DNA of 64,000 nt from assembly GCA_902788095.1 (NCBI GenBank), contig CADAIT010000012.1, forward strand, positions 1-64,000, read 5' to 3'. The translations under genes were made by a program, and so were the position numbers. Shown one piece after another: positions 9,901-60,043 of this stretch; position 1 is the first letter of the stretch; every line of letters starts with the position of its first letter. Source of the stretch: an uncultured Bacteroidia bacterium (GTDB taxonomy: Bacteria > Bacteroidota > Bacteroidia > Bacteroidales > UBA932). A model generated the notes under the pieces. It did no database searches, was not told the DNA's origin, and saw only the letters and a program-made list of their open reading frames with translations.

Positions 9901-11960
9901 GCCGGCCCATGACTTATACCCTGGCCATCGTGGACGAGGGGCTGCTGGATTTGACGGCCTTCAAGACGCCGGACCCGTGGTCCCGCATGAACCGGGACGA
10001 GGCGCTGGGCGTGAAAACCTGGGACCTCTACGACCAGGTGGTGGGCGCCATGAACGGACGGCTCACGCCGATTTCCGCGATCGGCGGTGACGAAGATGCC
10101 GTGCGCAGCGCCCGCAAGGACAACCGCTTCAACCCGGTGGTGCTCACCTTCGGGCCCCGCAGCGTAGCGGCCAAAGCCAGCGACGAGCTCCGCGTAAAAC
10201 TGCCCCAATATGTCGGCAGCGTGCGCGTGATGGTGGTGGCGGCACACGACGGCGCCTTCGGCAATGCCCAGAAGACGGTGCCCGTGCAGAGCCCGCTCAT
10301 GGTCATTTCCACCCTTCCCCGCCAACTGGGCTGCGGCGAAGAAGTGAGCGTCCCGGTGAACGTATTCGCCCTGGAAGACGGCGTGAAAGACGTCACCGTC
10401 ACCCTGGAAGCCGACGGTCCCGTGGAATTGGAAAAGCGCACGGAAAAAGTGCATTTCAGCAGCGCGGGAGACCAGTTGGTGCGCTTTAAGTTGCGCGCCC
10501 TGGCCGAGGAAGGCATCGCGCACCTCCGCGTTTCCGCCTCTGCCGCCGGACACAAGGCAGGCGAAGAGATTGCCCTGCCCGTCGTGCATCCGCAGGCCCG
10601 GGTTACCCGCGTGGAACGCTTCAGCCTGGCCGCCGGCGCCAGCCGAAAGGTGGCCGACGGGCAGCTGCAGGTGAGCGCCTTCCCGGTGCCGGACGCCCAC
10701 GGCCTTTACGCCGCCATGCGCGACTACCCGTACGACTGCACCGAACAGCTCAGCGCCCGCGGACTCACCCTGGTGAACCTGCTGCCGCAGTTGAACCAGG
10801 CCGATTCCACCGAAGCGCACGCATTGGTGCCACAGCTCATCGCCCGTCTGTATGCCCGGCAAAACACCGACGGAGGCTTCAGCTACTGGGGCGGCGGACA
10901 GTCCGACAGTTGGGTGTCGTCCATGGCCGGCATTATGCTTGTACAGGCACAGAAAGCCGGTTTTGAAGTGAACGAAGGCGTCCTCAAGGCCTGGAAGAGC
11001 TATCAGGAGAAACTCTCTCAGGCTTACCGTATAGCCGGCAGTTCCCTCTTCTCGCAGGCCGATGAGGCGTACAGGCTCTACAGCCTGGCCGCAGCCGGAG
11101 CATCGTCACAGTCCGGCATGAACCGCCTCCGCGAAGCACAGGAGCTTACGCCGCAGGCCCGCTGGCTGCTCGCAAGCGCCTACGCCTTGAGCGGAAAAGC
11201 CTCCACGGCCCGCACCGTGCTGGATGCCGTGGGCCGCGACTTCCCGGAATACAGCCCTTACAACCTCACCTACGGCAGCGCCACCCGCGACCGTTTCGCC
11301 GCGCTGGAGGCTCTGGTGCTCTGCGACCGCATGAACGAGGCCATGATGCTGGCTCAGGAGCTGCCGCTGGAACGCAGCCTGTCCACGCAGGAGAGTGCCT
11401 TTGCCGCCGTGGCCCTGGCCCGCCTGTTCCAGAAAGTACCCACCCGGGAAGCGCAGACGGTGCTCGAAAAAGGCGTGCTCACCAACAAGAGCGAAGGCAC
11501 GGTATATGTAACGCTGGCCACGGTTTCCCGCGAAGCCCTGCCGGCCACCGCCAACGGCCTGGGCCTGGAGGTGAGCTATATCGGCACCGACGGCACTCCG
11601 GTGAATCCCGCTTCGCTGAAACAGGGCGACCGCTTCACCGCACGCATCAAGGTGCAGTCCAAGCAGGCCGGACGCGATTTGCAGCACCTGGCCCTGAGCC
11701 TGAACGTACCCTCCGGCTGGGAGATTGTGAACGACCGCATGAACGGTTCCGCCGAGGATGGCTACGACCACAAAGACATCCGGGACAACGCCGTCCGCTG
11801 GTACTTCTCCCTGCCTGCAGGACGGTACAAGACCTTCTCGGTACAGCTGCGGGCCGCCTATGAAGGCCGATTCGTACTGCCCGCCACCGTGGTGGAAGCC
11901 ATGTACGAGCCCGGAGTGACGGCCGCCACCGCCCCCGGCTCTGCCGTGGTGCTGCCCTAG
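6909..11960 (+). CDS. bacterial alpha-2-macroglobulin, thioester type, lipoprotein
   Basis: 1683 residues. A lipobox (MAAAACGS, Cys20) anchors it in the membrane. The central MG region has ERGVWRPGDTLHVNM (about residue 518), then the A2M domain, and a thioester motif CTEQ within YPYDCTEQLSARG (Cys about 1277) at the head of an alpha/alpha thioester domain (NTDGGFSYWGGGQSDSW). The C-terminus is the receptor-binding-like domain. Such proteins trap invading proteases covalently in the periplasm. Family members with CxEQ are regularly encoded beside pbpC, as here (the TTG start follows after about 130 nt), and are thought to guard the cell when peptidoglycan is damaged. Between the genes lie three ~51-bp repeats. 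Confidence 0.92.
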   Translation: MKFFLKAWAAAILCMAAAACGSRSIAPEPSASEFAPYIKAYTGGMVPENAELRVDLTEDAAGQNPQTLFQFEPPIAGSARWNNASSVSFIPADGALKAGQTYKATFHLEKIREGAPTFVYPLLVKGKTADGGNTVLVKDNGRAFRVEQVALKDGLVEVSLSRTPVNASLRGMVELDGAARSYTQVQDNLLLVFFEGQQEDLTLTLDAGLKSADGEVLGEPYTYTFLRQEQKPAVQISLKGNILPEKDKFFLPFRAVNLSAVEVRVVKIYEKNVLMYLQDNELERGGNALRRGGRLIYRGDVQLDPSKDLHSWNEHSIDLGGLIKKEPGAIYRVRLSFRQDQSLYGGAEALLQPSAPSGQPSAEDEAIWDRPSSYYWDNDYDWNLYNWEDAEDPSKPSYYMDNERFPVVQLLASDIGLVAEYADGEKLWVAATDLLTGDPLPGAKLEVYDFQLQCIGKGKTDGKGLADFTLEHKPFAIVAKAGGSTAYLKTTLDGERSLSRFDVGGETVRQGLKAFIYGERGVWRPGDTLHVNMLLSDKGHNLPGGHPATLELYTPEGRFHTRMVRTGVDGFFSYDIPTRADDPTGYWNAYFKVGGSSFHKILHIETIKPNRLKIHAQYPSVLEAGDKRTAQIDAQWLTGGAASGAKARAQLTLRRMKGSPFQGFEAYNFNNPASQFKEAQAELFSSWLDGNGGATVQLALPEATDAPGMLEAFVVTSVEEKGGDESFTTQTLPFSPYSAYVGIKLPKGDYLETDKTHAIGLAVVDAKGRPVRGHSLEYVLYKVGWNWWWDIQGQGLDTYVNGNSVKVVMQGLLTSATQDVMLNVNVPKDDWGRYLLLVRDRESGHVSGQSFLADWPDYEGRAGRRDPEMLTMLSFSTDKPSYTVGEQATVYIPAAQGARALVSLENAGSVLHREWVSLSEKDTPWRFAVTPEMAPNIYVHITLLQPYGNTVNDLPLRLYGVQRVRVENPGSKLHPQVQMPDKLHPEEAFTIKVSEKNGRPMTYTLAIVDEGLLDLTAFKTPDPWSRMNRDEALGVKTWDLYDQVVGAMNGRLTPISAIGGDEDAVRSARKDNRFNPVVLTFGPRSVAAKASDELRVKLPQYVGSVRVMVVAAHDGAFGNAQKTVPVQSPLMVISTLPRQLGCGEEVSVPVNVFALEDGVKDVTVTLEADGPVELEKRTEKVHFSSAGDQLVRFKLRALAEEGIAHLRVSASAAGHKAGEEIALPVVHPQARVTRVERFSLAAGASRKVADGQLQVSAFPVPDAHGLYAAMRDYPYDCTEQLSARGLTLVNLLPQLNQADSTEAHALVPQLIARLYARQNTDGGFSYWGGGQSDSWVSSMAGIMLVQAQKAGFEVNEGVLKAWKSYQEKLSQAYRIAGSSLFSQADEAYRLYSLAAAGASSQSGMNRLREAQELTPQARWLLASAYALSGKASTARTVLDAVGRDFPEYSPYNLTYGSATRDRFAALEALVLCDRMNEAMMLAQELPLERSLSTQESAFAAVALARLFQKVPTREAQTVLEKGVLTNKSEGTVYVTLATVSREALPATANGLGLEVSYIGTDGTPVNPASLKQGDRFTARIKVQSKQAGRDLQHLALSLNVPSGWEIVNDRMNGSAEDGYDHKDIRDNAVRWYFSLPAGRYKTFSVQLRAAYEGRFVLPATVVEAMYEPGVTAATAPGSAVVLP

Positions 11961-34167: not shown

Positions 34168-34807
34168 TGATCGATAAGTATCTGGCTATCAGCAGCTTGC
34201 TAACATTCCTCGTTCATTTTTTGAACGAGGAATATCAGCATTTCGCTGAGTATCAAACGGTTAGCGATCACAATGGTTATACTCACGACACCGGCCTGTG
34301 ACAGGTAAGTTATTGTTATCCAGCATGTTACATCATAATCCTCGTTCATTTTTTGAACGAGGAATATCGGCATTTCACTGAGTACCAAATACTTAGCGAT
34401 CACAAAGACTCCGCCACATTGACACAGGCACTGTGATTGATAAGCAATTCATACACAATGAGTTACACAACATTCCTCGTTCATTTTTTGAACGAGGAAT
34501 ATCAGCATTTCGCTGAGTATCAAATACTTAGCGATCACAAAGACTCTGCCACCTTGACACAGACACTGTGATTGATAAGCAATTCATACACAATGAGTTA
34601 CACAACATTCCTCGTTCATTTTTTGAACGAGGAATATCGGCATTTCACTGAGTATCAAACGGTTAGCGATCACAATGGTTATACTCACGACACTGGCCTA
34701 TGACAGATAAGTTATTGTTATCCAGCACGTTACATCATAATCCTCGTTCGAAAAACGAACGAGGATTATACGTAAAAACACTGTAAACCAATTACTTATC
34801 AATCACA
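34168..34807 (+). repeat. array of five ~110-bp palindromic elements, no protein gene
   Basis: The gene-free 34029-34883 interval is filled by five elements at 34168-34273, 34297-34405, 34431-34540, 34566-34675 and 34700-34807. Each has a left arm with TGTGATTGATAAG or a variant, a central 12-bp-stem hairpin (ATTCCTCGTTCA/TGAACGAGGAAT type; spacing about 135, 135, 135 and 132 bp), and a right arm ending TTAGCGATCACAA. Left and right arms are imperfect inverted copies. Elements 3 and 4 and their spacers are almost identical, so part of the array arose by tandem duplication. Nothing else is visible; two small hairpins near 34830-34870 precede the next gene's end. Confidence 0.8.
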
Positions 34808-44294: not shown

Positions 44295-44430
44295 GCCGCG
44301 AATGCAAAAAATCGTCCCCACACCATACTCCAGCTGCAGTCGCGGCAAGCGTTGGAGCCCCAAGGGCCGTTTTCCCGGCCACGAATGCAAAAAATCGGCC
44401 CTACACCATACTCCAGCTGCAGTCGCGGCA
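44295..44430 (+). repeat. two diverged copies of the 83-bp REP family
   Basis: Two units start at 44295 and 44378 (period exactly 83). Core arms are GCCGCGAATGCA/TGCAGTCGCGGC and GCCACGAATGCA/TGCAGTCGCGGC. Compared with the arrays at 52.4 and 54.9 kb (GCCGCGATTGCA/TGCAAACGCGGC), several bases changed but the stem is kept. Same orientation as the main arrays; between the converging genes phoH and ppdK. Confidence 0.75.
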
Positions 44431-50617: not shown

Positions 50618-52243
50618 ATGAAACGAATCATACTGTTTGTGGCCGCCGTTGCGGCCTTTTCGCTGGGCGCCAATGCGCAATCCAAGGACTTCTCCCTGGG
50701 GAAATGGGTAGAGGTAAACAACGCCATACTGAAGGAACTGAACCGCTCGTATGTGGACTCACTGCAGATAAGCCGCATCGAACGGGCGGGCATCGACGCC
50801 ATGCTGGAAGCGCTGGATCCGTACACCATCTATGTGCCGGAAGAAGAGCAGGAGGACTTCCAGATGATGCTCAACAGCGCCTACGGTGGCGTGGGTGCCA
50901 TCATCTACAAGCCCGATGTCCAGGGCAACGTCATCATCAACGAGCCCTATGAAGGCTCCCCCGCCGCCCTGGCGGGTCTGCGCTGCGGCGACGAAGTGGA
51001 AGCTATCGACGGGATATCCACCCACGGCCTCACCAGCGCCGAAAGCAGCGAAAAAATGCGCGGCAAGCCGGGCACGACCGTCGTGCTCACAGTCAAGAAG
51101 TTACGCGCCGGCGCAAACTGGAAGGCCGGCGATGTGCTAGAGGTTCCGGTGGTGCGCAAACGCATCGTCCTGCCGTCCATGGAATACGCCGGCATGCTCA
51201 ACGAGGCCGATGGCTACATCTACCTGAGCAAATTCACGGAAGGCGTAGGACAAGACATCCGAGATGCCTATAAAAAACTGAAAACCAAAGGGATGCAACG
51301 CCTGGTTCTGGACCTGCGCGGCAACGGCGGCGGCATTATGGGCGAGGCTGTGAACATTGTGTCGCTGTTCATCCCCAAAGGTTCAGTGGTGGTAAGCGCC
51401 AAGGGCAAGGCTGCCCAGGAGCAGGTGTACAAGACCACCACGGACCCCATCGACACGGACATCCCGATTGTTGTCCTGGTTGACAATGCATCGGCATCGG
51501 CATCGGAAATTGTCTCCGGCGCCCTGCAGGACTACGACCGCGCCACCATTGTGGGCACCCGCACGTACGGAAAAGGCCTGGTGCAGAGCATCCGTCCCCT
51601 GCCCTACGACGGCCAGCTCAAGCTCACCACCGCCAAATATTATACGCCTTCGGGCCGATGCGTGCAGGCCATAGACTACTCCCGCCGCAACGCAGACGGT
51701 TCGGTAGGACACATGCCCGACTCGCTCACCCACACTTTTACCACCGCCCACGGACGCACGGTGCGCGACGGCGGCGGCATTACGCCGGATTTCATCGTCA
51801 AGGCGCACAAGTATTCCCGCCTCACCTATTCGCTGGTTTACAGTGGCCTTATCGAGCAGTATGCCCTGGAATACGTGCGTGCCCATGAGAGCATCCCCGC
51901 ATTGGAGGATTTCCATTACACTGATTACGAGGAGTTTATTGCTTTTGCGAAGGACAAGAAGTTCGACTACCGCTCGTCGGCCCGGGCCCTCTTTGACGAG
52001 ATGAAGAAATCGCTGGAGGAAGACGGGCTCACGGAAGCGCTGTCCGACGAACTGGGCGCCCTGCAGAAGTCTCTGGAGATGGATAAAGAAACCTTCCTGC
52101 GCCTGAAGAAGGACGAGATTGTACCGTTCATCGAAGAGGAGATTGCCGTGCGCTATTATTTCCAGGAAGCCGGCATCCAGGTGCGTCTCCGCCACGACGA
52201 CCAGCTCCACGAAGCCCTGAAGCAACCCGCCATCAGCTGGTAG
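50618..52243 (+). CDS. S41 family C-terminal processing peptidase
   Basis: 541 residues. Signal peptide to LGANAQ (about 21). PDZ domain about 85-185 (GGVGAIIYKPDVQGN, GSPAALAGLRCGDEV), then the S41 catalytic fold: FTEGVGQDIRDAYKK, LDLRGNGGGIMGEAV and VDNASASASEIVSGAL with the catalytic serine (about 294), TYGKGLVQS with the lysine. The C-terminal ~130 residues are helical and charged (TEALSDELGALQKSLEM). Periplasmic Tsp/CtpA-type protease that degrades or trims envelope proteins. Its downstream gap holds a 19-bp repeat and the left REP array. Confidence 0.92.
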   Translation: MKRIILFVAAVAAFSLGANAQSKDFSLGKWVEVNNAILKELNRSYVDSLQISRIERAGIDAMLEALDPYTIYVPEEEQEDFQMMLNSAYGGVGAIIYKPDVQGNVIINEPYEGSPAALAGLRCGDEVEAIDGISTHGLTSAESSEKMRGKPGTTVVLTVKKLRAGANWKAGDVLEVPVVRKRIVLPSMEYAGMLNEADGYIYLSKFTEGVGQDIRDAYKKLKTKGMQRLVLDLRGNGGGIMGEAVNIVSLFIPKGSVVVSAKGKAAQEQVYKTTTDPIDTDIPIVVLVDNASASASEIVSGALQDYDRATIVGTRTYGKGLVQSIRPLPYDGQLKLTTAKYYTPSGRCVQAIDYSRRNADGSVGHMPDSLTHTFTTAHGRTVRDGGGITPDFIVKAHKYSRLTYSLVYSGLIEQYALEYVRAHESIPALEDFHYTDYEEFIAFAKDKKFDYRSSARALFDEMKKSLEEDGLTEALSDELGALQKSLEMDKETFLRLKKDEIVPFIEEEIAVRYYFQEAGIQVRLRHDDQLHEALKQPAISW

Positions 52244-52255
52244 GCCGGGTAGGGC

Positions 52256-52375
52256 CGAATGGGCGAGGTCTGGGCTGAATTGCCGAGGTCCGGGTCGAAT
52301 TGCCCAGGGCTGGCCGAATTGCCCAGGTCTGGCCGAATTGCCCAGGTCTGGCTGAATTGCCCAGGTCCGGCCGTA
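52256..52375 (+). repeat. 19-bp tandem repeat, about six copies
   Basis: The unit TGGCCGAATTGCCCAGGTC recurs with period 19 (for example GCCCAGGTC at 52321, 52340 and 52359) with decaying copies to the left. It starts 12 nt after the S41 stop and abuts the REP array. No gene. Confidence 0.75.
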
Positions 52376-52417
52376 GTCGTGCAGGCTATGTTTCCGGCCG
52401 AAGGAGGCGATTCTCCG

Positions 52418-52930
52418 GCCGCGATTGCACAAAATCGACCTTCTGCGGTACTCCAGTTGCAAACGCGGCAAGCATTCCGGCCGAAGGAGGTGTTTCTCCG
52501 GCCGCGATTGCATGAATTCTGCGTTCTGCGACACTCCAGATGCAAACGCGGCAAGCTTTCACACCAGAGCATACAGCGTGAGCCGTCGCGGCGAGGTGTT
52601 CTCCCGGCCGCGATTGCACGAAATCGGCCTTTGCGGCACTCCAGCTGCAAACGCGGCAAGCATTCCGGCCAAAAGGGGCGTTCTCCCAGCCGCGATTGCA
52701 CAAAATCGGCGTTCTACAGCATTCCAGCTGCAAACGCGGCAAGCTTTCACACCAGAGCATACAACGTGAGCCGTCGCGGCGAGGTGTTCTCCCGGCCGCG
52801 ATTGCACAAAACCAGCCTTCTGCGGCACTCCAGCTGCAAACGCGGCAAGCATTCGGGCGGAAAGGGGCGTTCTCCCAGCCGCGATTGCATGAAATCGGCC
52901 TTCTGCAGCACTCCAGCTGCAAACGAGGCA
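52418..52930 (+). repeat. left REP array: six 83-bp-type palindromic units
   Basis: Cores start at 52418, 52501, 52607, 52689, 52795 and 52878 (steps 83, 106, 82, 106, 83). Each core has GCCGCGATTGCA, a ~28-nt centre and TGCAAACGCGGC (about 52 bp). The 106-bp steps carry a 23-bp longer linker with ACACCAGAGCATACA and GTGAGCCGTCGCGGC. All units lie in the + direction between the converging S41 and J-domain genes. No protein gene; long ORFs on either strand are by-products of the repeat. Confidence 0.88.
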
Positions 52931-53050
52931 AGCAGAACAGAGCCAGAACAGAACAGAACAGAGCGGGGCGCGGCAGAACGCGGAAAAACGCGATGAAGCG
53001 CAGCGCGGCAGAACGCGGCAGAACGCGGAAAAACGCGATGAAGCGCAGCG
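52930..53050 (+). repeat. decayed AGAACAG and 45-bp tandem repeats
   Basis: AGAACAG-type short repeats (52932-52962) are followed by two 45-bp copies (from 52973 and 53018) of GCAGAACGCGGAAAAACGCG plus GATGAAGCGCAGCGC. They fill the gap to the J-domain gene's stop. No gene is visible. Confidence 0.65.
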
Positions 53051-53064
53051 CAACAGGCCGCAAG

Positions 53065-53817
53065 CTACAGACCGCGCTCCCGTTTGATGGTCTCGTAGGC
53101 CTCCTGGACCTGGCGGAACTTCTCCGCCGCGGCCTTTTGGACATCCGGTCCCAGCGTAGCCACCTTGTCCGGGTGGTTTTTCATGGCCATGCGACGATAG
53201 GCCGCACGAATCTCGTCGTTGCTGGCCGAGGGAGAAACCTCCAGCACGGCATAGGCCGATTCCGCGCCTTTATAGAACATGGCGATGACGGAATTCACGT
53301 CGGAGCCGGAGAGCCGAATCACCGTCCCAATGGCTTCCAACACGCTTTTCTCCGATTGGGAGAACGTTCCGTCGGCGGTAGCAATCTGGACCAGATAGTG
53401 AAACAGCTGCAGCCGCTGGGAGTAGTTCATGTTGGCGGCAATCTGGTCACCGACCTGATAGATATTCACGTTCTGGGCATTCAGGCGCTCCAGCATCGGC
53501 ATGGCCTGTCTGGCGGCATCTTCCCCGAAATTCCGACGGAAAAAGTCCCGTACGCAATTCATCTCCGCCGGGTGGATTCTGCCATCGGCCTTGATAATTG
53601 CCGATGAAAGCACCAGCAAGCTCACAAAAAAGCTGTTCCGCTGCTCGGTGGCCGTGTAGTTGCGCGTGCTGCCGGCAGGGGCCTCGCCGCCCGGAAGCTG
53701 GCGGGACATGTCGATGTACTGTTCAATTGCGCTTCCCAGCAGATATCCGATGAGGCCGCCCAGAGGGCCGAAGTAGGCCCATCCCAGAACGCCCGTTATC
53801 CATTTTGTTACTCCCAT
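53065..53817 (-). CDS. TerB-J-domain co-chaperone (DjlA-like)
   Basis: 250 residues. An N-terminal Gly/aromatic stretch (ITGVLGWAYFGPLGGLIGYL, about 7-27) is a glycine-zipper membrane segment; then a TerB-type helical domain (LLVLSSAIIKADGRIHPAEM to VLEAIGTVIRLSG, about 65-165); then a C-terminal J domain (SAYAVLEVSPSASNDEIRAA, HPDK motif, AYETIKRERG). This is the DjlA arrangement. It recruits DnaK to the membrane. Divergent from the RAYT gene; both flanking convergent gaps carry REP arrays. Confidence 0.88.
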   Translation of the reverse strand: MGVTKWITGVLGWAYFGPLGGLIGYLLGSAIEQYIDMSRQLPGGEAPAGSTRNYTATEQRNSFFVSLLVLSSAIIKADGRIHPAEMNCVRDFFRRNFGEDAARQAMPMLERLNAQNVNIYQVGDQIAANMNYSQRLQLFHYLVQIATADGTFSQSEKSVLEAIGTVIRLSGSDVNSVIAMFYKGAESAYAVLEVSPSASNDEIRAAYRRMAMKNHPDKVATLGPDVQKAAAEKFRQVQEAYETIKRERGL

Positions 53818-53891
53818 TTCTCAAGTGTTGTGTTTCCCGCCCTACATCAAAAGTCAGTCCATTCCACGAAAAACTGACAAAATGGCGCAGG

Positions 53892-53951
53892 CCAAATCGG
53901 TTGAAACAGAAAAAAAACATGTGAAACAACACTTTTTTTCAACCGATTCTT
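53892..53951 (+). promoter_or_regulatory. long inverted repeat upstream of the RAYT gene
   Basis: CCAAATCGGTTGAAA (53892-53906) and TTTCAACCGATTCTTGG (53937-53953) form a 12-bp perfect stem (AATCGGTTGAAA) extended by CCA/TGG around a ~30-nt loop. It lies 32 nt before the RAYT ATG and upstream of the divergent J-domain gene. No consensus -7 box is nearby. It could be an operator, an attenuator or a transposase recognition palindrome. Confidence 0.55.
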
Positions 53952-53984
53952 GGTTCTACGCCTTCGCGGACGTATCTTGCAGGC

Positions 53985-54902
53985 ATGAAAGAATCGTATC
54001 ACCTATGTTTCACCTCGCACGACGAGGTCATGTTCAGGGACGCGGAAGACCACGGAATGTTCCTGAACATCCTCGCGCTGCGCGGGTTTTCGACGGAAAC
54101 GGAAGTGGAATGCGAGGCGGAGATGTCCACCCACGTGCACATAAATACACTTACAGCACAACCCGGCCGATTTGCCGGACAGGTTCGCATGTCCTACACC
54201 AAGTGGTTCAACGCCAAATATGGACGGGAAGGGCGCTTCGGGGAAAAATACACTTTTATCTCCAAGGTGGATGGTTTTTACCATCAGCTGGTGGTATTCA
54301 ATTATATTTTACGAAACGGGCTGCACCATTGTGCCGCCGCCACCGCTTTGGGCTATCCGTATTGCTCTGTCCGTGAGCAGTTTGCCTTCGATTTGGGCAT
54401 GGAGAAAGAACTTGCCGCCAACTGGAGCAGGCAGGAGATGGCCAGTTTCCTGCCACGTTATGCCGAGTTTCCGGACGAGTACCAGATGACCGCCTCCGGC
54501 ATCTTTCTCCGGCATTCTTTCATGGAAATCCGGAAAGTGGAACAGTACTATGTCACTCCGCGCAACTATTTGTACCAAATGAACCGGCTTACGGACGAGA
54601 GCTGGACCACCGAGCAACAGCAGGACCGGACAGGACCTCCCATTACTTTGCGGGATGTGGAGCAGGCCGATGAAAAAACCATTGCGCAACTGTTGAAGAA
54701 TGAGTCCGGGCGCAACTACAAGCACGGGCGCATGCAAGACCTGGATGTGTGCCGACTCATAGACCGGGACATCCTCCCCGGATATGGCGTGCAGTCTGTT
54801 TATCAGCTTTCCGCCACCCAAAAGCAGCACATTGCCCGACAGCTCCTGTACGATTTCCACCTTCCGGAGTACCAGATTCGCCGCTGCCTGGTCATGGGTT
54901 AA
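53985..54902 (+). CDS. REP-associated tyrosine transposase (RAYT, IS200-like Y1 fold)
   Basis: 305 residues. The Y1/HUH fold is shown by STHVHINTL (HVH at residues 50-52), the stretch SYTKWFNAKYGREGRFGEKY (70-89; typical RAYT block FNxKYGRxGxLFxxRF), and VFNYILRNGLHH with the probable nucleophile Tyr107 (equivalent to YIHxNPVRAG). The C-terminal ~130 residues are a helical domain ending LYDFHLPEYQIRRCLVMG, resembling a winged or HTH part of Bacteroidota members. RAYTs nick single-stranded palindromes and spread REP sequences. No insertion-sequence ends flank the gene; instead it sits between REP arrays (52.4-52.95 and 54.9-56.5 kb), the second beginning about 10 nt after its stop. Confidence 0.85.
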   Translation: MKESYHLCFTSHDEVMFRDAEDHGMFLNILALRGFSTETEVECEAEMSTHVHINTLTAQPGRFAGQVRMSYTKWFNAKYGREGRFGEKYTFISKVDGFYHQLVVFNYILRNGLHHCAAATALGYPYCSVREQFAFDLGMEKELAANWSRQEMASFLPRYAEFPDEYQMTASGIFLRHSFMEIRKVEQYYVTPRNYLYQMNRLTDESWTTEQQQDRTGPPITLRDVEQADEKTIAQLLKNESGRNYKHGRMQDLDVCRLIDRDILPGYGVQSVYQLSATQKQHIARQLLYDFHLPEYQIRRCLVMG

Positions 54903-54910
54903 AAGGAGTG

Positions 54911-56595
54911 TACGCGGCAAGCACTCGGGCGGAAAGGGGCGTTTCTCCGGCCGCGATTGCATAAAAACGGCATTCTGCGGCACTCCAGCTGCAAACGCGG
55001 CAAGCATTCGGGCCGAAAGAGGCGATTCTCCGGCCGCGATTGCATGAAATCGGCGTTCTGAGGCATTCCAGTTGCAAACGCGGCAAGCATTCCGGCCGCA
55101 GGGGGCGTTTTTCCGGCCGCGATTGCATGAAATCGGCCTTCTGCGGCATTCCAGATGCAAACGCGGCAAGCATTCCTACCGGAAGAGGCGTTCTCCCGGC
55201 CGCGATTGCATGAAATCGGCCTTCTGCGGCATTCCAGATGCAAACGCGGCAAGCATTCGGGCCAAAAGGGGCATTTTTCCGGCCGCGATTGCATGAAATC
55301 GGCGTTCTGCAGCGTTCCAGCTGCAAACGCGGCAAGCATTCGGGCCGAAAGAGGCGATTCTCCGGCCGCGATTGCACAAAATCGCCCTTCTGCGGCACTC
55401 CAGCTGCAAACGCGGCAAACATTCCGGCCTAAAGGGGCGTTTTTCCGGCCGCGATTGCACGGAATCGGCCTTCTACGGCACTCCAGCTGCAAACGCGGCA
55501 AGCATTCGGGCCATAAGGAACGTCTTCCCAGCCGCGATTGCACAAAATCGGCGTTCTGCGGCACTCCAAATGCAAACGCGGCGGCATTCCGGCGGAAAGG
55601 GGCGTTTTTCCGGCCGCGATTGCACAGAATCGGCCTTCTGAGGCATTCCAGTTGCAAACGCGGCAAACTTTCACACCAGCGCATACAGCGTGAGCCGTCG
55701 CGGCAGGGCGTACGGCGAGGTGCGGGGTGTACGATAGGGGGCGCACAATGCAGCAAGCAGTCGCACCGGAGCACACAGCACGCCGCGGCAAGCGTTCGAG
55801 CGGAAAGGGGCGTTTCTCCGGCCGCGATTGCACGAAATCAGCGTTCTGCGGCACTCCAGATGCAAACGCGGCAAGCATTCCTGCCGCAGGGGGCGTTTTT
55901 CCGGCCGCGATTGCACAAAATCGGCGTTCTGCGGCACTCCAGCTGCAAACGCGGCAGGCAGAACAGAGCACACAGCGTGAGCAGTCGCGGCAGGGCGTAC
56001 GGCGAGGGGCGGGCGTACGATAAGGGGCGCACAATGCAGCAAGCAGTCGCACCGGAGCACACAGCACGCCGCGGCAAGTGTTCTGGCCAAAAGTGGTGTT
56101 CTCCGGCCGCGATTGCACGAAATCGGCCTTCTGCGGCATTCCAGATGCAAACGCGGCAAGCATTCGGGCCAAAAGGGGCATTTTTCCGGCCGCGATTGCA
56201 TAAAAACGGCGTTCTGCAGCGTTTCAGCTGCAAACGCGGCAAGTGTTCCGGCCGAAAGGGGCATTCTCCCAGCCGCGATTGCATAAAATCGGCGTTCTGC
56301 GGCATTCCAGCTGCAAACGCGGCAAGCATTCGGGCGGAAAGGGGCATTTCTCTGGCCGCGATTGCATGAAATCGGCCTTCTGAGGCATTCCAGCTGCAAA
56401 CGCGGCAAGCATTCCTGCCGCAGGGGGCGTTTTTCCGGCCGCGATTGCACAAAATCGCCCTTCTGCGGCATTCCAGCTGCAAACGTGGCAAGCAGGCGCA
56501 CCGGAGCACACAGCATGCCACGGCAAAGCGCCACGCCAGGCGCGCCGGAGCACACAGCACGCCGCACCAAAGCGCCACGGCAAAGCGCCAAAGCG
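54911..56595 (+). repeat. right REP array: sixteen 83-bp palindromic units
   Basis: Cores start at 54950, 55033, 55116, 55199, 55282, 55365, 55448, 55531, 55613, 55821, 55904, 56106, 56189, 56272, 56355 and 56438. Thirteen steps are 83 bp (one 82), and two long steps (208 and 202) hold a ~120-bp insert with TGAGCCGTCGCGGCAGGGCG-type sequence that occurs twice (about 55675-55795 and 55965-56073). Each core is a 52-bp palindrome with arms GCCGCGATTGCA and TGCAAACGCGGC. From 56490 the array decays into CACACAGCA/CGCCACGGCAAAG fragments up to the convergent membrane-protein stop at 56596. No gene is present. Confidence 0.9.
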
Positions 56596-57741
56596 CTACA
56601 GCAGCGAAACGAGCAGGTATGTGAAGTGGGCGATGATGCCCGCGCAGAGGCCGGCGATGGCGTGCGCGCCGATGGCTTTGGAAATCACCTTGCGGTAGCC
56701 CAGGGAGTCCAGCATGGCGGTGTGCGTGGAGAGGAAACCGCTCCAGCACATGCCGCTGGCGGTGAACACCGCGATGGCATTGCCGTCCAGGATGCCGGCG
56801 GCGTCAAAGGTAGGCAGCAGGCCCAGGGAAGCCCCGACGGCGCCCAGCGAAGTCATCGGGAAGGCAATGAGCTCCATGTGCTCGAAGCCGAACAACCACT
56901 CAAACACCCAGTGAATTTTTTCTGCCAGCCAGGGCAGGATGGGGACGCCCTGTGACGATGAACCGTCATACACGCCGGAAGGCCCCGTTCCGAACGTAAT
57001 CATGATGACCGCGGTGGTAATGATGAGTACGCCGGGAATAATTTGCATGCCCAGATCCACGCCGTTTTTACCGCCGTCGAGAATGGCGTTCAAAAAACGC
57101 ATGAAAATACCCTTCTGCTCCGATTCCTCTTCCTGCTCCTCCCGGACATCATCGGCCAGCTGCTCCTGGACGGGACTGTCCAGCTCCGGATAGGCCTTCA
57201 GACAGCTGCGCTGCATCAGGCGCGTGGAGATGACGGAACCGCAGAAGGCCCCGAACAGGCCCACCAGCGCTCCGCTCAGATGCCCGTAGCCGATCATGGT
57301 GATGATGACCACGAAGCCCATCCCGAAAGCCGTGCCGAAATTGGTCAGGGAAATGAGCTGGTATTTTTTGAAATAGGCACTGAACGTCTTGTCCTTGGAA
57401 AGGGAGATGATGGCGGGATTGTCCGACAGGAAAGTCATCACGGCACCCAGGGCCGCCACACCCGGCAGGTTATAGACCGGCTTCATGAGCGGACGCAGAA
57501 AGCGCTCCAGCAGCGTCACGACGCCGAACTCCGACATCAGCTTGGAAAGCGCTCCGGTAAGCACCGTGATGCCCATCAGGTAAAACACCGTGTTCAGCAA
57601 CAGGTCATGTGCCGTGTTCATGATGGTTTTGAGCATATTGCCGCCTCCCATGCGCATTCCCAGCAGGGAGAAAACCGTAATCAGGAGGGCAAGGAAAACC
57701 AACGCCTCAATTGTCGAGCGTCGAGTCCGGTTTTTTTTCAT
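56596..57741 (-). CDS. nucleoside-recognition (Gate) domain membrane protein
   Basis: 381 residues, about eight to ten membrane spans. Two Gate-type domains: ALSKLMSEFGVVTLLERFLRPL and VMTFLSDNPAIISLSKD in the first half, GVDLGMQIIPGVLIITTAVI and LIAFPMTSLGAVGASLG in the second, separated by an acidic loop (DDVREEQEEESEQ, about 200-215). Related proteins (SpmA/SpmB, YjiG/YjiH) transport or recognise nucleosides or take part in sporulation in other phyla; the substrate here is unknown. The stop lies at the edge of the right REP array. Starts 4 nt after the porin's stop codon region, so both are in one operon. Confidence 0.78.
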   Translation of the reverse strand: MKKNRTRRSTIEALVFLALLITVFSLLGMRMGGGNMLKTIMNTAHDLLLNTVFYLMGITVLTGALSKLMSEFGVVTLLERFLRPLMKPVYNLPGVAALGAVMTFLSDNPAIISLSKDKTFSAYFKKYQLISLTNFGTAFGMGFVVIITMIGYGHLSGALVGLFGAFCGSVISTRLMQRSCLKAYPELDSPVQEQLADDVREEQEEESEQKGIFMRFLNAILDGGKNGVDLGMQIIPGVLIITTAVIMITFGTGPSGVYDGSSSQGVPILPWLAEKIHWVFEWLFGFEHMELIAFPMTSLGAVGASLGLLPTFDAAGILDGNAIAVFTASGMCWSGFLSTHTAMLDSLGYRKVISKAIGAHAIAGLCAGIIAHFTYLLVSLL

Positions 57742-57744
57742 AAA

Positions 57745-58737
57745 TTATTTTCGATATTTTTTGATAATCTTGACAAAGTCGAGGTTGTAAGTGACACCTG
57801 CGCTTGCGCTTACTGTTTTGGTTACGCTCTCCACCCAGGCGGCGGCATGAATGCGGAGCTCGCTGTTTCCCAGCGGGAAAAACTCCGTGCCTCCGCCGCC
57901 ACACCAATAAACGGTGCCGGGAGGGACGGTCAAATCGTACGCGATTCCATTCTCATCTACATTCTGCCCGTTCCCCTCGTAGCTGCCTTTGAGGAAGAGT
58001 TTCCATTTGTCATTGATTCGGAAATCCAGCTTGGCGACTGCGCCGCCGTCAAACTGCGCTTTTTTCTGCGTAAGGCTGCGGCGGTACATCAAATCCAGTT
58101 CCAGGGCTGCCACCTGCCCTATCTCGAAGCGGTTGCCAAGGGAGACATAGCCCATCATGTGATGGTAATAGTCGTCAATCCAGTTGACGCTCCACAAGGT
58201 TTTCCACCAGGGGAAAAAGCTGCCCGTCCAGCCCAGGCCGACATCCATGCGGGAAAGGTCGCCGCCGTGCAGCGGCGAATGGCCCACCTGAAGCAGCAGT
58301 TCCTGGCCCTCCCGGGGACGGAAAAACACGGTGCCGCCCAGGGCGTACACGTGCTGGATGTAGTTGCAGAAGCCGCCGTAGAAATAGACGTCGATAGGGG
58401 CGGCGTCCCACTCGTACCCGCCGATGTAGATGGGCTGTTTTCCGCCCCCGATGCTCCATTTGGGCGAAATGTCCCAGGTGAGGGAAAGGATATCGGTGCC
58501 GTTCAGCGGGTTTTTGGCGTCGTAAATGGGTTTGGTGAGGCGATGACGGAAGCGGAAGCGCAGGGACGGGGTGATACGTCCCATTATGTGGATATTGGCA
58601 AAATCCGCACGCAACCCCGGTTTCTGTTGCTGCAGGACTACGGAGGCACGGGCTTCTATGGCTGCATAGTCTATCTGGGCCGAAGCTAAAAAGCTGGCAG
58701 CCAGGAACGCCGTGACGACAAGGAATATTTTTCTCAT
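57745..58737 (-). CDS. outer-membrane porin-like protein (O/P family)
   Basis: 330 residues from MRKIFLVVT, signal peptide ending SFLASAQ (about 21). The 41 residues before it from an alternative Met at 58860 overlap the U32 promoter and are not a signal. The rest is a beta-barrel pattern of alternating strands (RPREGQELLLQVGHSPLHGG, IDDYYHHMMGYVSLGNRFEI, FRINDKWKLFLKGSYEGNGQ) ending in a terminal strand with Leu-Asp-Phe, as in phosphate-selective-porin-like proteins of Bacteroidota. The solute is unknown. Divergent from the U32 gene. Confidence 0.7.
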   Translation of the reverse strand: MRKIFLVVTAFLAASFLASAQIDYAAIEARASVVLQQQKPGLRADFANIHIMGRITPSLRFRFRHRLTKPIYDAKNPLNGTDILSLTWDISPKWSIGGGKQPIYIGGYEWDAAPIDVYFYGGFCNYIQHVYALGGTVFFRPREGQELLLQVGHSPLHGGDLSRMDVGLGWTGSFFPWWKTLWSVNWIDDYYHHMMGYVSLGNRFEIGQVAALELDLMYRRSLTQKKAQFDGGAVAKLDFRINDKWKLFLKGSYEGNGQNVDENGIAYDLTVPPGTVYWCGGGGTEFFPLGNSELRIHAAAWVESVTKTVSASAGVTYNLDFVKIIKKYRK

Positions 58738-58760
58738 TAAAGTTTTGTGGTTAGCGGCTG

Positions 58761-58789
58761 CAAAGATAGCAATTAAATGCGTACCTTTG
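58761..58789. promoter_or_regulatory. divergent -7 boxes between the porin and U32 genes
   Basis: TATCTTTG on the minus strand (58768-58761) and TACCTTTG on the plus strand (58782-58789). The plus box ends 3 nt before the ATG at 58793 of the U32 gene, which must then be leaderless; the minus box leaves about 24 nt before the porin ATG. Confidence 0.55.
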
Positions 58790-58792
58790 CAC

Positions 58793-60043
58793 ATGATGCA
58801 GAAAAAAGAATTGGAAATTATGGCGCCGGCCGGCGGCTTCGACTGCCTGCACGCCGCCATTCAGGGAGGGGCCGATTCCGTATATTTCGGAATAGGCCAT
58901 CTGAACATGCGTTCGCACTCGGCAGGGAACTTCACGCGGGAGGACCTGCCGGAGGTCATGCGCCTTTGCCGGGAAAACGGCATCAAAGCCTATCTGACGC
59001 TGAATATCACCTTGTACGGCGAAGACCTGCAGGCGGCCTATGACACGCTGGACGCGGCCAAGGCGGCGGGGGTGGATGCCATCATCGCCTCGGACATGGC
59101 TGCCATCCTGTACTGCCGGAAAATCGGCCTGGAGGTGCATATTTCCACGCAATTGAGTATTTCAAACGTGGAAGCGCTCCGCTTTTACGCCCAGTTTGCC
59201 GATGTGGTCGTGCTGGCGCGGGAACTGAACCTGGACCAGGTGAAGGCCATTCACGAAACCATTGTTTCCGAGCACATTACCGGCCCCTCCGGGCAGCCGG
59301 TACGTATAGAGATGTTCGCCCACGGAGCCTTCTGCATGGCCGTTTCCGGCAAGTGCTACCTGTCGCTGGCCGCATACGGAGAAAGCGCCAACCGAGGCTC
59401 CTGCCTGCAGGTTTGCCGCCGCGGCTACCTGGTCACCGACTACGAGACCGGAAACCAAATCCATATCGACAACAAATACCTGATGTCGCCCAAGGACTTG
59501 TGCACCATCGACTTCTTGGACAAGTTCGTGGAGGCGGGCGTGAAGGTGTTCAAGATTGAAGGCCGCGCCCGCAGTGCAGACTACGTGAAAATCACCGCCC
59601 GGTGTTACCGGGAAGCCGCCGATGCCGTGGCCGACGGGACCTTTACGCCGGAGATGGGCACCCGGCTGAAGGAGCAGCTGGCCACCGTCTTCAACCGGGG
59701 CTTCTGGGACGGATACTACCTGGGGGCCCGCATGGGAGAATGGAGTTCGAAATATGGTTCACAGGCCACCCGGCTCAAGGTTTATGTGGGAAAAGTGACC
59801 AACTGGTTCGCCAAGATAGGCGTTGTGGAAGTGCAGGTGGACGCCACGCCGCTGCACCGCGGAGAGACGCTGCTGTTCATCGGCAACACCACCGGGGCGC
59901 TGGAAGTGGAAGCCACGGATTTGCGCGTGGACTATGAGCCTGCGGAGATGTGTCCCCAAGGCAGGCGCTGTTCCGTCGCCATTCCCGAAGGTCCGGACCA
60001 CCCCCGCCGCGGCGACAAAGTTTACATCTGGACAAAAGCCTAA
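58793..60043 (+). CDS. U32 family protein (TrhP-like)
   Basis: 416 residues from MMQKKELEIM; the Met at 58712 is upstream of the promoter. Family blocks: IMAPAGGFDCLHAAIQGGAD, VYFGIGHLNMR, TLNITLYGEDL, IEMFAHGAFCMAVSGKCYLS, and the cysteine motif RGSCLQVCRRGY (about residue 205). The C-terminal part (from ~330) is a beta-barrel-like domain. U32 proteins described as peptidases include TrhP, which hydroxylates tRNA wobble uridine using prephenate and Fe-S chemistry, and RlhA for 23S rRNA; the four conserved cysteines favour an RNA-modifying role rather than collagenase activity. Confidence 0.85.
   Translation: MMQKKELEIMAPAGGFDCLHAAIQGGADSVYFGIGHLNMRSHSAGNFTREDLPEVMRLCRENGIKAYLTLNITLYGEDLQAAYDTLDAAKAAGVDAIIASDMAAILYCRKIGLEVHISTQLSISNVEALRFYAQFADVVVLARELNLDQVKAIHETIVSEHITGPSGQPVRIEMFAHGAFCMAVSGKCYLSLAAYGESANRGSCLQVCRRGYLVTDYETGNQIHIDNKYLMSPKDLCTIDFLDKFVEAGVKVFKIEGRARSADYVKITARCYREAADAVADGTFTPEMGTRLKEQLATVFNRGFWDGYYLGARMGEWSSKYGSQATRLKVYVGKVTNWFAKIGVVEVQVDATPLHRGETLLFIGNTTGALEVEATDLRVDYEPAEMCPQGRRCSVAIPEGPDHPRRGDKVYIWTKA

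Follow-up and report, generated by a model that had tools for sequence, protein, structure and literature searches.

In the RAYT/REP systems of gammaproteobacteria (REPtrons), as set out in the available excerpts of PMC2817692, genes for REP-associated tyrosine transposases (RAYTs) are flanked by inverted repetitive extragenic palindromes (REPs), and bacterial interspersed mosaic elements (BIMEs) hold REPs in alternating orientation; one third of the RAYTs adjoin BIME arrays, and RAYT and REP coevolve. Here we describe a locus of an uncultured Bacteroidales bacterium in which a gene for a RAYT-like protein lies between two arrays of hairpin units that all point the same way. The window is the whole stretch of DNA analysed, 64,000 nt of contig CADAIT010000012.1 (assembly GCA_902788095.1, positions 1 to 64,000). 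Like a REPtron, the locus has a single HUH/Y1 gene between palindromes whose copies are dispersed extragenically; unlike the inverted REPs with a conserved 5' head excerpted from PMC2817692, its hairpins stand in head-to-tail doublets and arrays with no GTAG. We consider it probable, at roughly 70%, that this is the RAYT/REP system of a divergent Bacteroidales RAYT, and that its unit is a head-to-tail doublet like the end hairpins of IS200/IS605 elements and not an inverted REP doublet forming a hairpin (REPIN).

Several other described systems share some of these traits, as far as the excerpted literature goes. Pseudomonas fluorescens SBW25 has evenly spaced arrays of same-type REPs at two positions (PMC3116915). 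The REPINs of P. fluorescens resemble the present doublets in that the doublet is the replicative unit, and a few evenly spaced tandem REP arrays occur there; REPIN doublets are inverted and can make one long hairpin (PMC3116915), whereas here both hairpins have the same direction and are separated by a 31-nt spacer. Head-to-tail (HT) is a named dimer arrangement of GTAG/CGTC REPs, rare among those (PMC3733652) but the prevailing form here. For Bacteroidetes, TnpAREP subclass 2.6 (RAYT group 5) is described with 'atypical secondary structures' by the gene and copies elsewhere (PMC6006769), and our locus is alike in its Bacteroidetes host and its gene-adjacent structures with copies elsewhere. 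It is set apart by description, in that subclass 2.6 proteins have 179 aa with NH[LIV]H and YIH[QN]NP motifs (PMC6006769), against 305 aa with THVH, YILRNG and a C-terminal helical domain here. Subclass 2.1 has C-terminal helix-turn-helix domains and no REPs (PMC6006769). Single-stranded hairpins are what IS200/IS605 enzymes and TnpAREP act on, in a strand-specific way (PMC8266576). In the open-licence literature, part of it available in excerpt, we found no account in which head-to-tail doublets predominate in Bacteroidales. An earlier interpretation made from the letters of the window (the sequence-only reading) had judged the behaviour of this locus to look undescribed, which is too strong because REP arrays with even spacing (PMC3116915) and, as a rare form, head-to-tail dimers (PMC3733652) have been published.

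Hairpin units around the gene and across the source genome

The RAYT-like gene (53985-54902, + strand) is an open reading frame of 305 aa with H50-V-H52. It is accompanied by 22 hairpin units, six upstream (52418-52929) and 16 downstream (54950-56489), every one on the + strand, so the sequence-only reading was correct about their number, their common orientation and the single gene with HVH at 50-52. Its mostly exact 83-bp period holds for 14 of the 20 within-array intervals, the others being 82 bp (two), 106 bp (two), 202 bp (one) and 208 bp (one). It had also placed both arrays immediately beside the gene; this applies to the 16-unit array, which begins 47 nt past the RAYT stop codon, but not to the 6-unit array, since some 1.05 kb, including a TerB-DnaJ gene (53065-53817, - strand), separate that upstream array from the RAYT gene. 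The upstream units are 51-52 nt long, with spacers of 31, 54, 31, 54 and 31 nt; downstream, 12 of the 15 spacers are 31 nt and the rest 30, 156 and 150 nt. A fixed 52-nt pattern with up to three mismatches recovered 21 of the 22 array units and one more at 44295, and the sole array unit that it missed, at 52607, is 51 nt long. With both strands counted, the pattern gave 44 matches in the window versus none in 100 dinucleotide shuffles.

The source assembly consists of 28 contigs (2.16 Mb, 83% complete), with the window on contig C12 (75 kb). Its fetched parts contained 63 units in 12 clusters (16, 15, 6, 5, 5, 4 and 3 units, four doublets and one single), with a weak hit at C4:81606 excluded from the spacer, cluster and mismatch counts; the palindromes thus both flank the gene and are dispersed in the genome. 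Each unit is an imperfect hairpin palindrome with arms that are mostly GCCGCGATTGCA / TGCAAACGCGGC and a variable loop of 27-28 nt, followed by a spacer, and at stem position 7 an A.A mismatch is present in 60 of the 63 units. As DNA, a 91-nt stretch that includes one unit was predicted to fold at -20 kcal/mol (z -1.96). All of the arrays and units that we inspected for location (in the window, on C4 and in four loci of other genomes) fall between genes, as canonical REPs do.

The spacers are regular in length and not in sequence. Forty of 51 in the source genome measure 31 nt, three 30 or 32 nt, six 54 nt (in arrays on C10 and C12) and two 150-156 nt, while their sequence varies between clusters. 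Neighbouring units had the same orientation in 59 of 60 pairs from this genome and three relatives, so the two inverted REPs that characterise a REPIN were not found; in the one remaining pair a unit has symmetric arms, and its loop agrees with the neighbour's. Nor are the REPs flanking the gene inverted as in the excerpted REPtron description (PMC2817692), since both window arrays are on the + strand, although the flanking doublets of one related genome, G037, are inverted. The 5' flanks tend to have YT or CYG as the last bases before the hairpin.

The RAYT-like protein and its hairpins in related genomes

An alignment of 48 related proteins had six invariant columns, among them H50, H52 and Y107, which supply the HUH motif and the single catalytic tyrosine of the Y1 class (loci L075, L085, L088, L090 and L097 yielded no protein, and L050 was left unaligned). 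Thirteen of the 48 relatives matched Pfam Y1_Tnp and 14 of the 48 NCBIfam REP_Tyr_transpos at E 0.1 or better. The profile of all 48 weakly matched the IS200-type transposase structures 2ec2 (E 0.02) and 2f4f (E 0.06), and a Foldseek search with a poor AlphaFold2 model returned transposases for all 27 best matches, nearly all of IS608, ISDra2 or IS200 type (probability 1.00, E 0.0022-0.013). In our reading, the order of the first strands and helices in the model appears to agree with Y1. Helices were modelled with fair confidence for residues 252-302, and this C-terminal segment is perhaps a helix-turn-helix. Together, the invariance of the two histidines and the tyrosine and the fold matches support a divergent Y1/HUH RAYT.

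IS200/IS605 elements such as IS608 carry two subterminal end hairpins in the same orientation. Our locus is like IS200/IS605 elements (IS608, ISDra2) in the probable fold of the protein and in the same-orientation hairpin pair; unlike them, its RAYT gene was not seen as a mobile multi-copy element. The source genome gave one RAYT match and no second at E 0.001. Among 400 genomes of the genus, 38 encode a homologue of at least 55% identity, and at E 1e-70 or better 36 of these 38 have one copy and two (G304 and G333) have two. The ratio of nonsynonymous to synonymous substitution rates (dN/dS) was 0.055 and 0.071 against the two closest relatives and 0.055-0.074 among the three closest genes, and the gene keeps the same neighbours in three species. 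The RAYT gene is therefore conserved, mostly single-copy and under purifying selection. Some copies contain an in-frame stop (L085 and L090; G180 and G434) or are split over two frames (L213; G422), and hairpin units still adjoin them.

Such hairpins occur on one or both sides of the gene at 28 of 29 RAYT loci of other genomes, mostly with different arms. The family is 51-53 nt long with 12-bp covarying arms, and core lengths of 51, 52 and 53 correspond to periods of 82, 83 and 84. A partner hairpin stood beside the seed hairpin at a spacer of 31 nt in 50 of 118 flanks, 30 nt in 30, and 41 and 42 nt in eight each, with 0-2 flanks for every remaining offset from 15 to 69; the 30-nt class probably consists of 31-nt hairpins read one base off. 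Spacers read at the other RAYT loci were 31 nt in 34 of 41 and 42 nt in seven of 41, all of the latter in G391 (L097, a chance palindrome in L034 and those clusters whose orientation was undecided are not counted). The G391 arrays (L088/L124) combine the 42-nt spacer with a 93-bp period, and the extra 11 nt beyond the usual 31 are about one helical turn. Across 33 aligned doublets we counted 102 two-sided changes versus 37 in shuffles, and sliding by one base abolished pairing; the units behind these covariation counts were chosen partly by pairing, which biases the paired percentage. For partners chosen by position that had at least seven pairs (48 of 117), 447 pairs were unchanged, 31 had changed on both sides and still paired, 16 had gone to G-T and 49 were broken.

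More distant RAYT-like genes of the genus are accompanied by other palindromes. Arm 8-mers were common to both flanks at 11 of 23 such loci (control mean 0.18, maximum 3), and some of these loci have repeat periods near 52-53, 70-74 or 77-80. At L051, L053 and L057, which hold distant NHVH-type RAYT-like genes of the same genus, nearby tandem repeats have a 52-53 bp period and are palindromic in L051 and L053.

We asked how closely repeat and gene go together. Cores of the window lineage (at most one mismatch) were present in seven of the 400 genus genomes, and six of these seven belong to the 38 that have a close homologue (Fisher p 3e-6). Two other arm types occurred in six and four of the 38 positive genomes and in none of 20 negative ones, a negative being a genome without a homologue of at least 55% identity; these negatives lie nearly all outside the clade, defined by an RNase R marker at E 1e-300 or better (85 of 400 genomes). 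A covariance model of the doublet, to which L085, L088 and L090 contributed no row, first gave matches in 38 of 38 positives versus 2 of 38 negatives. We rejected this comparison as evidence of association since it is confounded, 34 of the 38 negatives being outside the RNase R clade; the positives G263 and G164 are outside it too. Within the clade, doublets were found in 36 of 36 genomes with the gene versus 33 of the 49 in which no close homologue was detected (presence p 4e-5), with median matches of 14.5 versus 2 (number p 2e-8). The match numbers are rough because at most 44 or at most 74 candidates were scored per genome and weak reverse-strand matches are included, and the clade statistics ignore phylogeny within the clade. 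This clade-internal result is weaker than the first, yet it is the one on which we rely. The 14 clade positives without a row in the model all matched (14 of 14; median 13 versus 2; presence p 0.009, number p 1.5e-4).

A family member is in fact present in at least three of the 49 clade negatives. In G224 it has 48% identity; in G241 and G422, which were among 11 clade-negative genomes inspected at 20 loci, it lies in pieces. Doublets are therefore enriched with the gene yet present in many genomes where the RAYT was lost or missed. The arms also follow the gene at close range: among the 25 sequences with both a protein and a unit, out of 29 with a unit (the window and 28 loci), RAYT pairs of more than 80% identity (nine pairs) differed at 1.4 of 24 arm bases, versus 5.5 for all pairs (permutation p 1e-4). 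From the arms shared between flanks at distant loci, the tracking of arms in close pairs and the doublet enrichment, the repeats are probably the cognate REPs of the RAYT. A RAYT with its own REP family, as the sequence-only reading had proposed, is upheld by the same evidence together with the fold matches and the invariant residues. For its refuting case, a unit equally common without the gene, the outcome is mixed: doublets are rarer where no RAYT was detected, yet in the same clade they are far from absent.

Doublet copying, array growth and rival explanations

Seventeen of 19 genomes tried had two usable doublets. Between doublets of these 17, hairpins at the same position were 0.72 identical versus 0.61 across positions (Wilcoxon p 0.002); therefore, doublets tend toward being copied whole, and like a REPIN the doublet behaves as one replicating unit, with the qualification that the comparison with identity within a doublet (0.64) gave p 0.07. 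Whole-doublet copying has been argued for REPINs too, in the excerpted text of PMC3116915; the doublets here are in direct orientation. We envisage that a RAYT dimer would bind the two same-orientation hairpins of a doublet in single-stranded DNA, and that Y107 would cut beside each hairpin, with rejoining to follow. The doublet might in this way be moved or copied much as IS200/IS605 TnpA treats its two same-orientation end hairpins. Insertion next to an existing unit, with recombination or gene conversion between units, could then lengthen doublets to arrays of the same pitch. The role of the enzyme in array growth is the least certain step.

Arrays are not peculiar to one assembly, since runs of at least five units adjoin the RAYT of G193 and G391 and G310 has runs of three to six units at four sites. 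It is quite possible, at somewhat under even odds, that the RAYT placed only the original doublets, and that replication slippage or unequal crossing-over on hairpin DNA enlarged them to arrays, which would then be passive satellites in whose growth the enzyme has no role. Multi-unit blocks are indeed repeated inside the window arrays, with periods of 188 nt and 285 nt, and a 106-nt unit form recurs; units resemble others of their own array more closely than those of most other arrays, and arrays occur in only some of the species examined. Against passive growth, adjacent units in three arrays of the source genome resembled one another no more than random pairs did (p 0.55, 0.89 and 0.87), the unlinked arrays on C10 and C12 draw from one variant pool, as do two arrays on C4, and the pitch is constant across arrays despite unrelated spacer sequences. 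Simple slippage or duplication of neighbouring single units is unsupported as the sole cause because adjacent units are not more alike than random ones. This trims the proposal of the sequence-only reading, amplification by tandem duplication or by the transposase. As we read the array pattern, units and arrays may have been copied into one another through transposition or gene conversion, with block duplication in addition. The same reading had singled out the long array as the unusual mode. The arrays are real in some species, where they represent further amplification, but they are less unusual than the subfamily-wide head-to-tail doublet with its 31-nt spacer.

The other two alternatives concern what the repeats and the gene are. 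GC-rich hairpins can terminate transcription, and the repeats could be host structural elements (terminators, or sites for nucleoid or replication proteins) that merely lie near the gene; their intergenic position, their GC-rich hairpins and the many genomes that hold doublets with no close RAYT detected would fit. We regard this as unlikely, given that an Rfam scan of 52000-57000 found no family at gathering score, that the arms vary by species and track the RAYT for close pairs, and that each RAYT lineage has its own arms beside the gene. Still less probable, in our estimate, is that the unit derives, as a non-autonomous form, from an ordinary IS200/IS605 element, with the gene an insertion sequence transposase that was never domesticated. 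The resemblance of the hairpins to IS200/IS605 ends and the IS608 and ISDra2 TnpA proteins among the best fold matches speak for such an origin, but an ordinary mobile insertion sequence is disfavoured by the copy number across the 38 genomes, by the lack of a second match in the source genome, by the neighbours common to three species and by dN/dS below 0.08.

Several observations weigh against a RAYT that spreads its own head-to-tail doublets. With respect to the protein, the class-2 signature Y---NP (PMC6006769, in excerpt) is altered to Y107-ILR-N111-G112, with the N retained and the P replaced; no meaningful score was obtained for the window protein with any Pfam or NCBIfam family; the AlphaFold2 model, made from nine sequences, had a predicted local distance difference test (pLDDT) score of 48.8, too poor for a description of the active site; and Foldseek returned no match at E 0.001 or better. 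With respect to the repeats, no consensus 5' GTAG or CGTC tag was found. L097, the lone exception among the 29 loci, has no hairpin, and some loci (for example L032, L074, L077 and L091) have single hairpins only. By a crude loop motif, six of 42 neighbouring pairs at other RAYT loci and four of 34 at extra loci were in opposite orientation. To these we add that the covariation counts come from units selected in part by pairing, and the doublets in clade genomes lacking a detected close homologue. The Mantel correlation between RAYT and arms over all 25 loci was weak (r 0.15, p 0.06), and the excess of same-position over within-doublet identity is not significant. Finally, conserved HUH/Y residues, cognate hairpins, regular spacing, a tendency to whole-doublet copying and arrays in some species are observed, whereas movement of the doublets is what we infer from them.

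Locus history, other features and significance

Three species share a set of neighbouring genes, namely RecO, NTPase, S41 peptidase, TerB-DnaJ, RAYT, transporter, outer-membrane protein, U32 and RNase R (neighbour names are partly our reading of the translations). In G005 (L105, about 10653-10659) the S41 peptidase gene directly adjoins TerB-DnaJ; in the window, about 820 bp containing six units stand in this place (52244-53064), so the 6-unit array at this site appears to be a presence/absence difference between species. In G037 (L106), compared with window positions 50618-60043 and with G005, the TerB-DnaJ/RAYT block and the transporter/outer-membrane protein/U32 block each have the opposite orientation, and the junctions of the inverted blocks bear repeat doublets. 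In 16 further relatives, the sequence fetched on either side of TerB-DnaJ yielded none of the remaining eight neighbour proteins.

A truncated unit (54880-54949, + strand) overlaps the RAYT 3' end and continues into the first full unit; the doublet model matches 54880-55001 with 76 bits. A solitary head-to-tail doublet of the same hairpin family, with a 31-nt spacer, lies at 44295-44429 (+ strand; 113.7 bits, with this doublet included among the rows of the model). Just upstream of the RAYT gene, at 53895-53948, is a 12-bp perfect inverted repeat, AATCGGTTGAAA / TTTCAACCGATT, with a 30-nt loop. It is kept in relatives (perfect in G037, one mismatch in G005, a similar one in G349) and is perhaps an operator or promoter feature. 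Short tandem repeats fringe both hairpin arrays, at 52253-52373 (19 bp), 52969-53037 (about 10 bp) and 56493-56603 (44 bp). A separate tandem repeat at 34202-34769 has 3.5 copies of a 135-bp unit that holds the palindrome ATTCCTCGTTCA...TGAACGAGGAAT.

A bolder interpretation, which we put forward tentatively and think doubtful as a whole, is that this Bacteroidales RAYT lineage kept or re-evolved the end geometry of IS200/IS605. The doublet would then be a gene-free single-strand transposon of about 135 nt, two same-orientation hairpins at a 31-nt distance, and self-adjacent insertion would build arrays, so that one enzyme could make both dispersed doublets and satellite-like arrays.

The way in which RAYTs spread REPs is still debated ground, and the literature considered here treats it for inverted doublets, mainly in gammaproteobacteria. 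Because the window subfamily went unrecognised by the Pfam and NCBIfam models used, surveys that begin with models of this kind could overlook it. With head-to-tail doublets at a fixed spacer as its main form, the lineage permits a simple geometric test of whether the enzyme needs two same-orientation hairpins, as IS200/IS605 transposases do, and its arrays offer a natural record of unit-by-unit copying.

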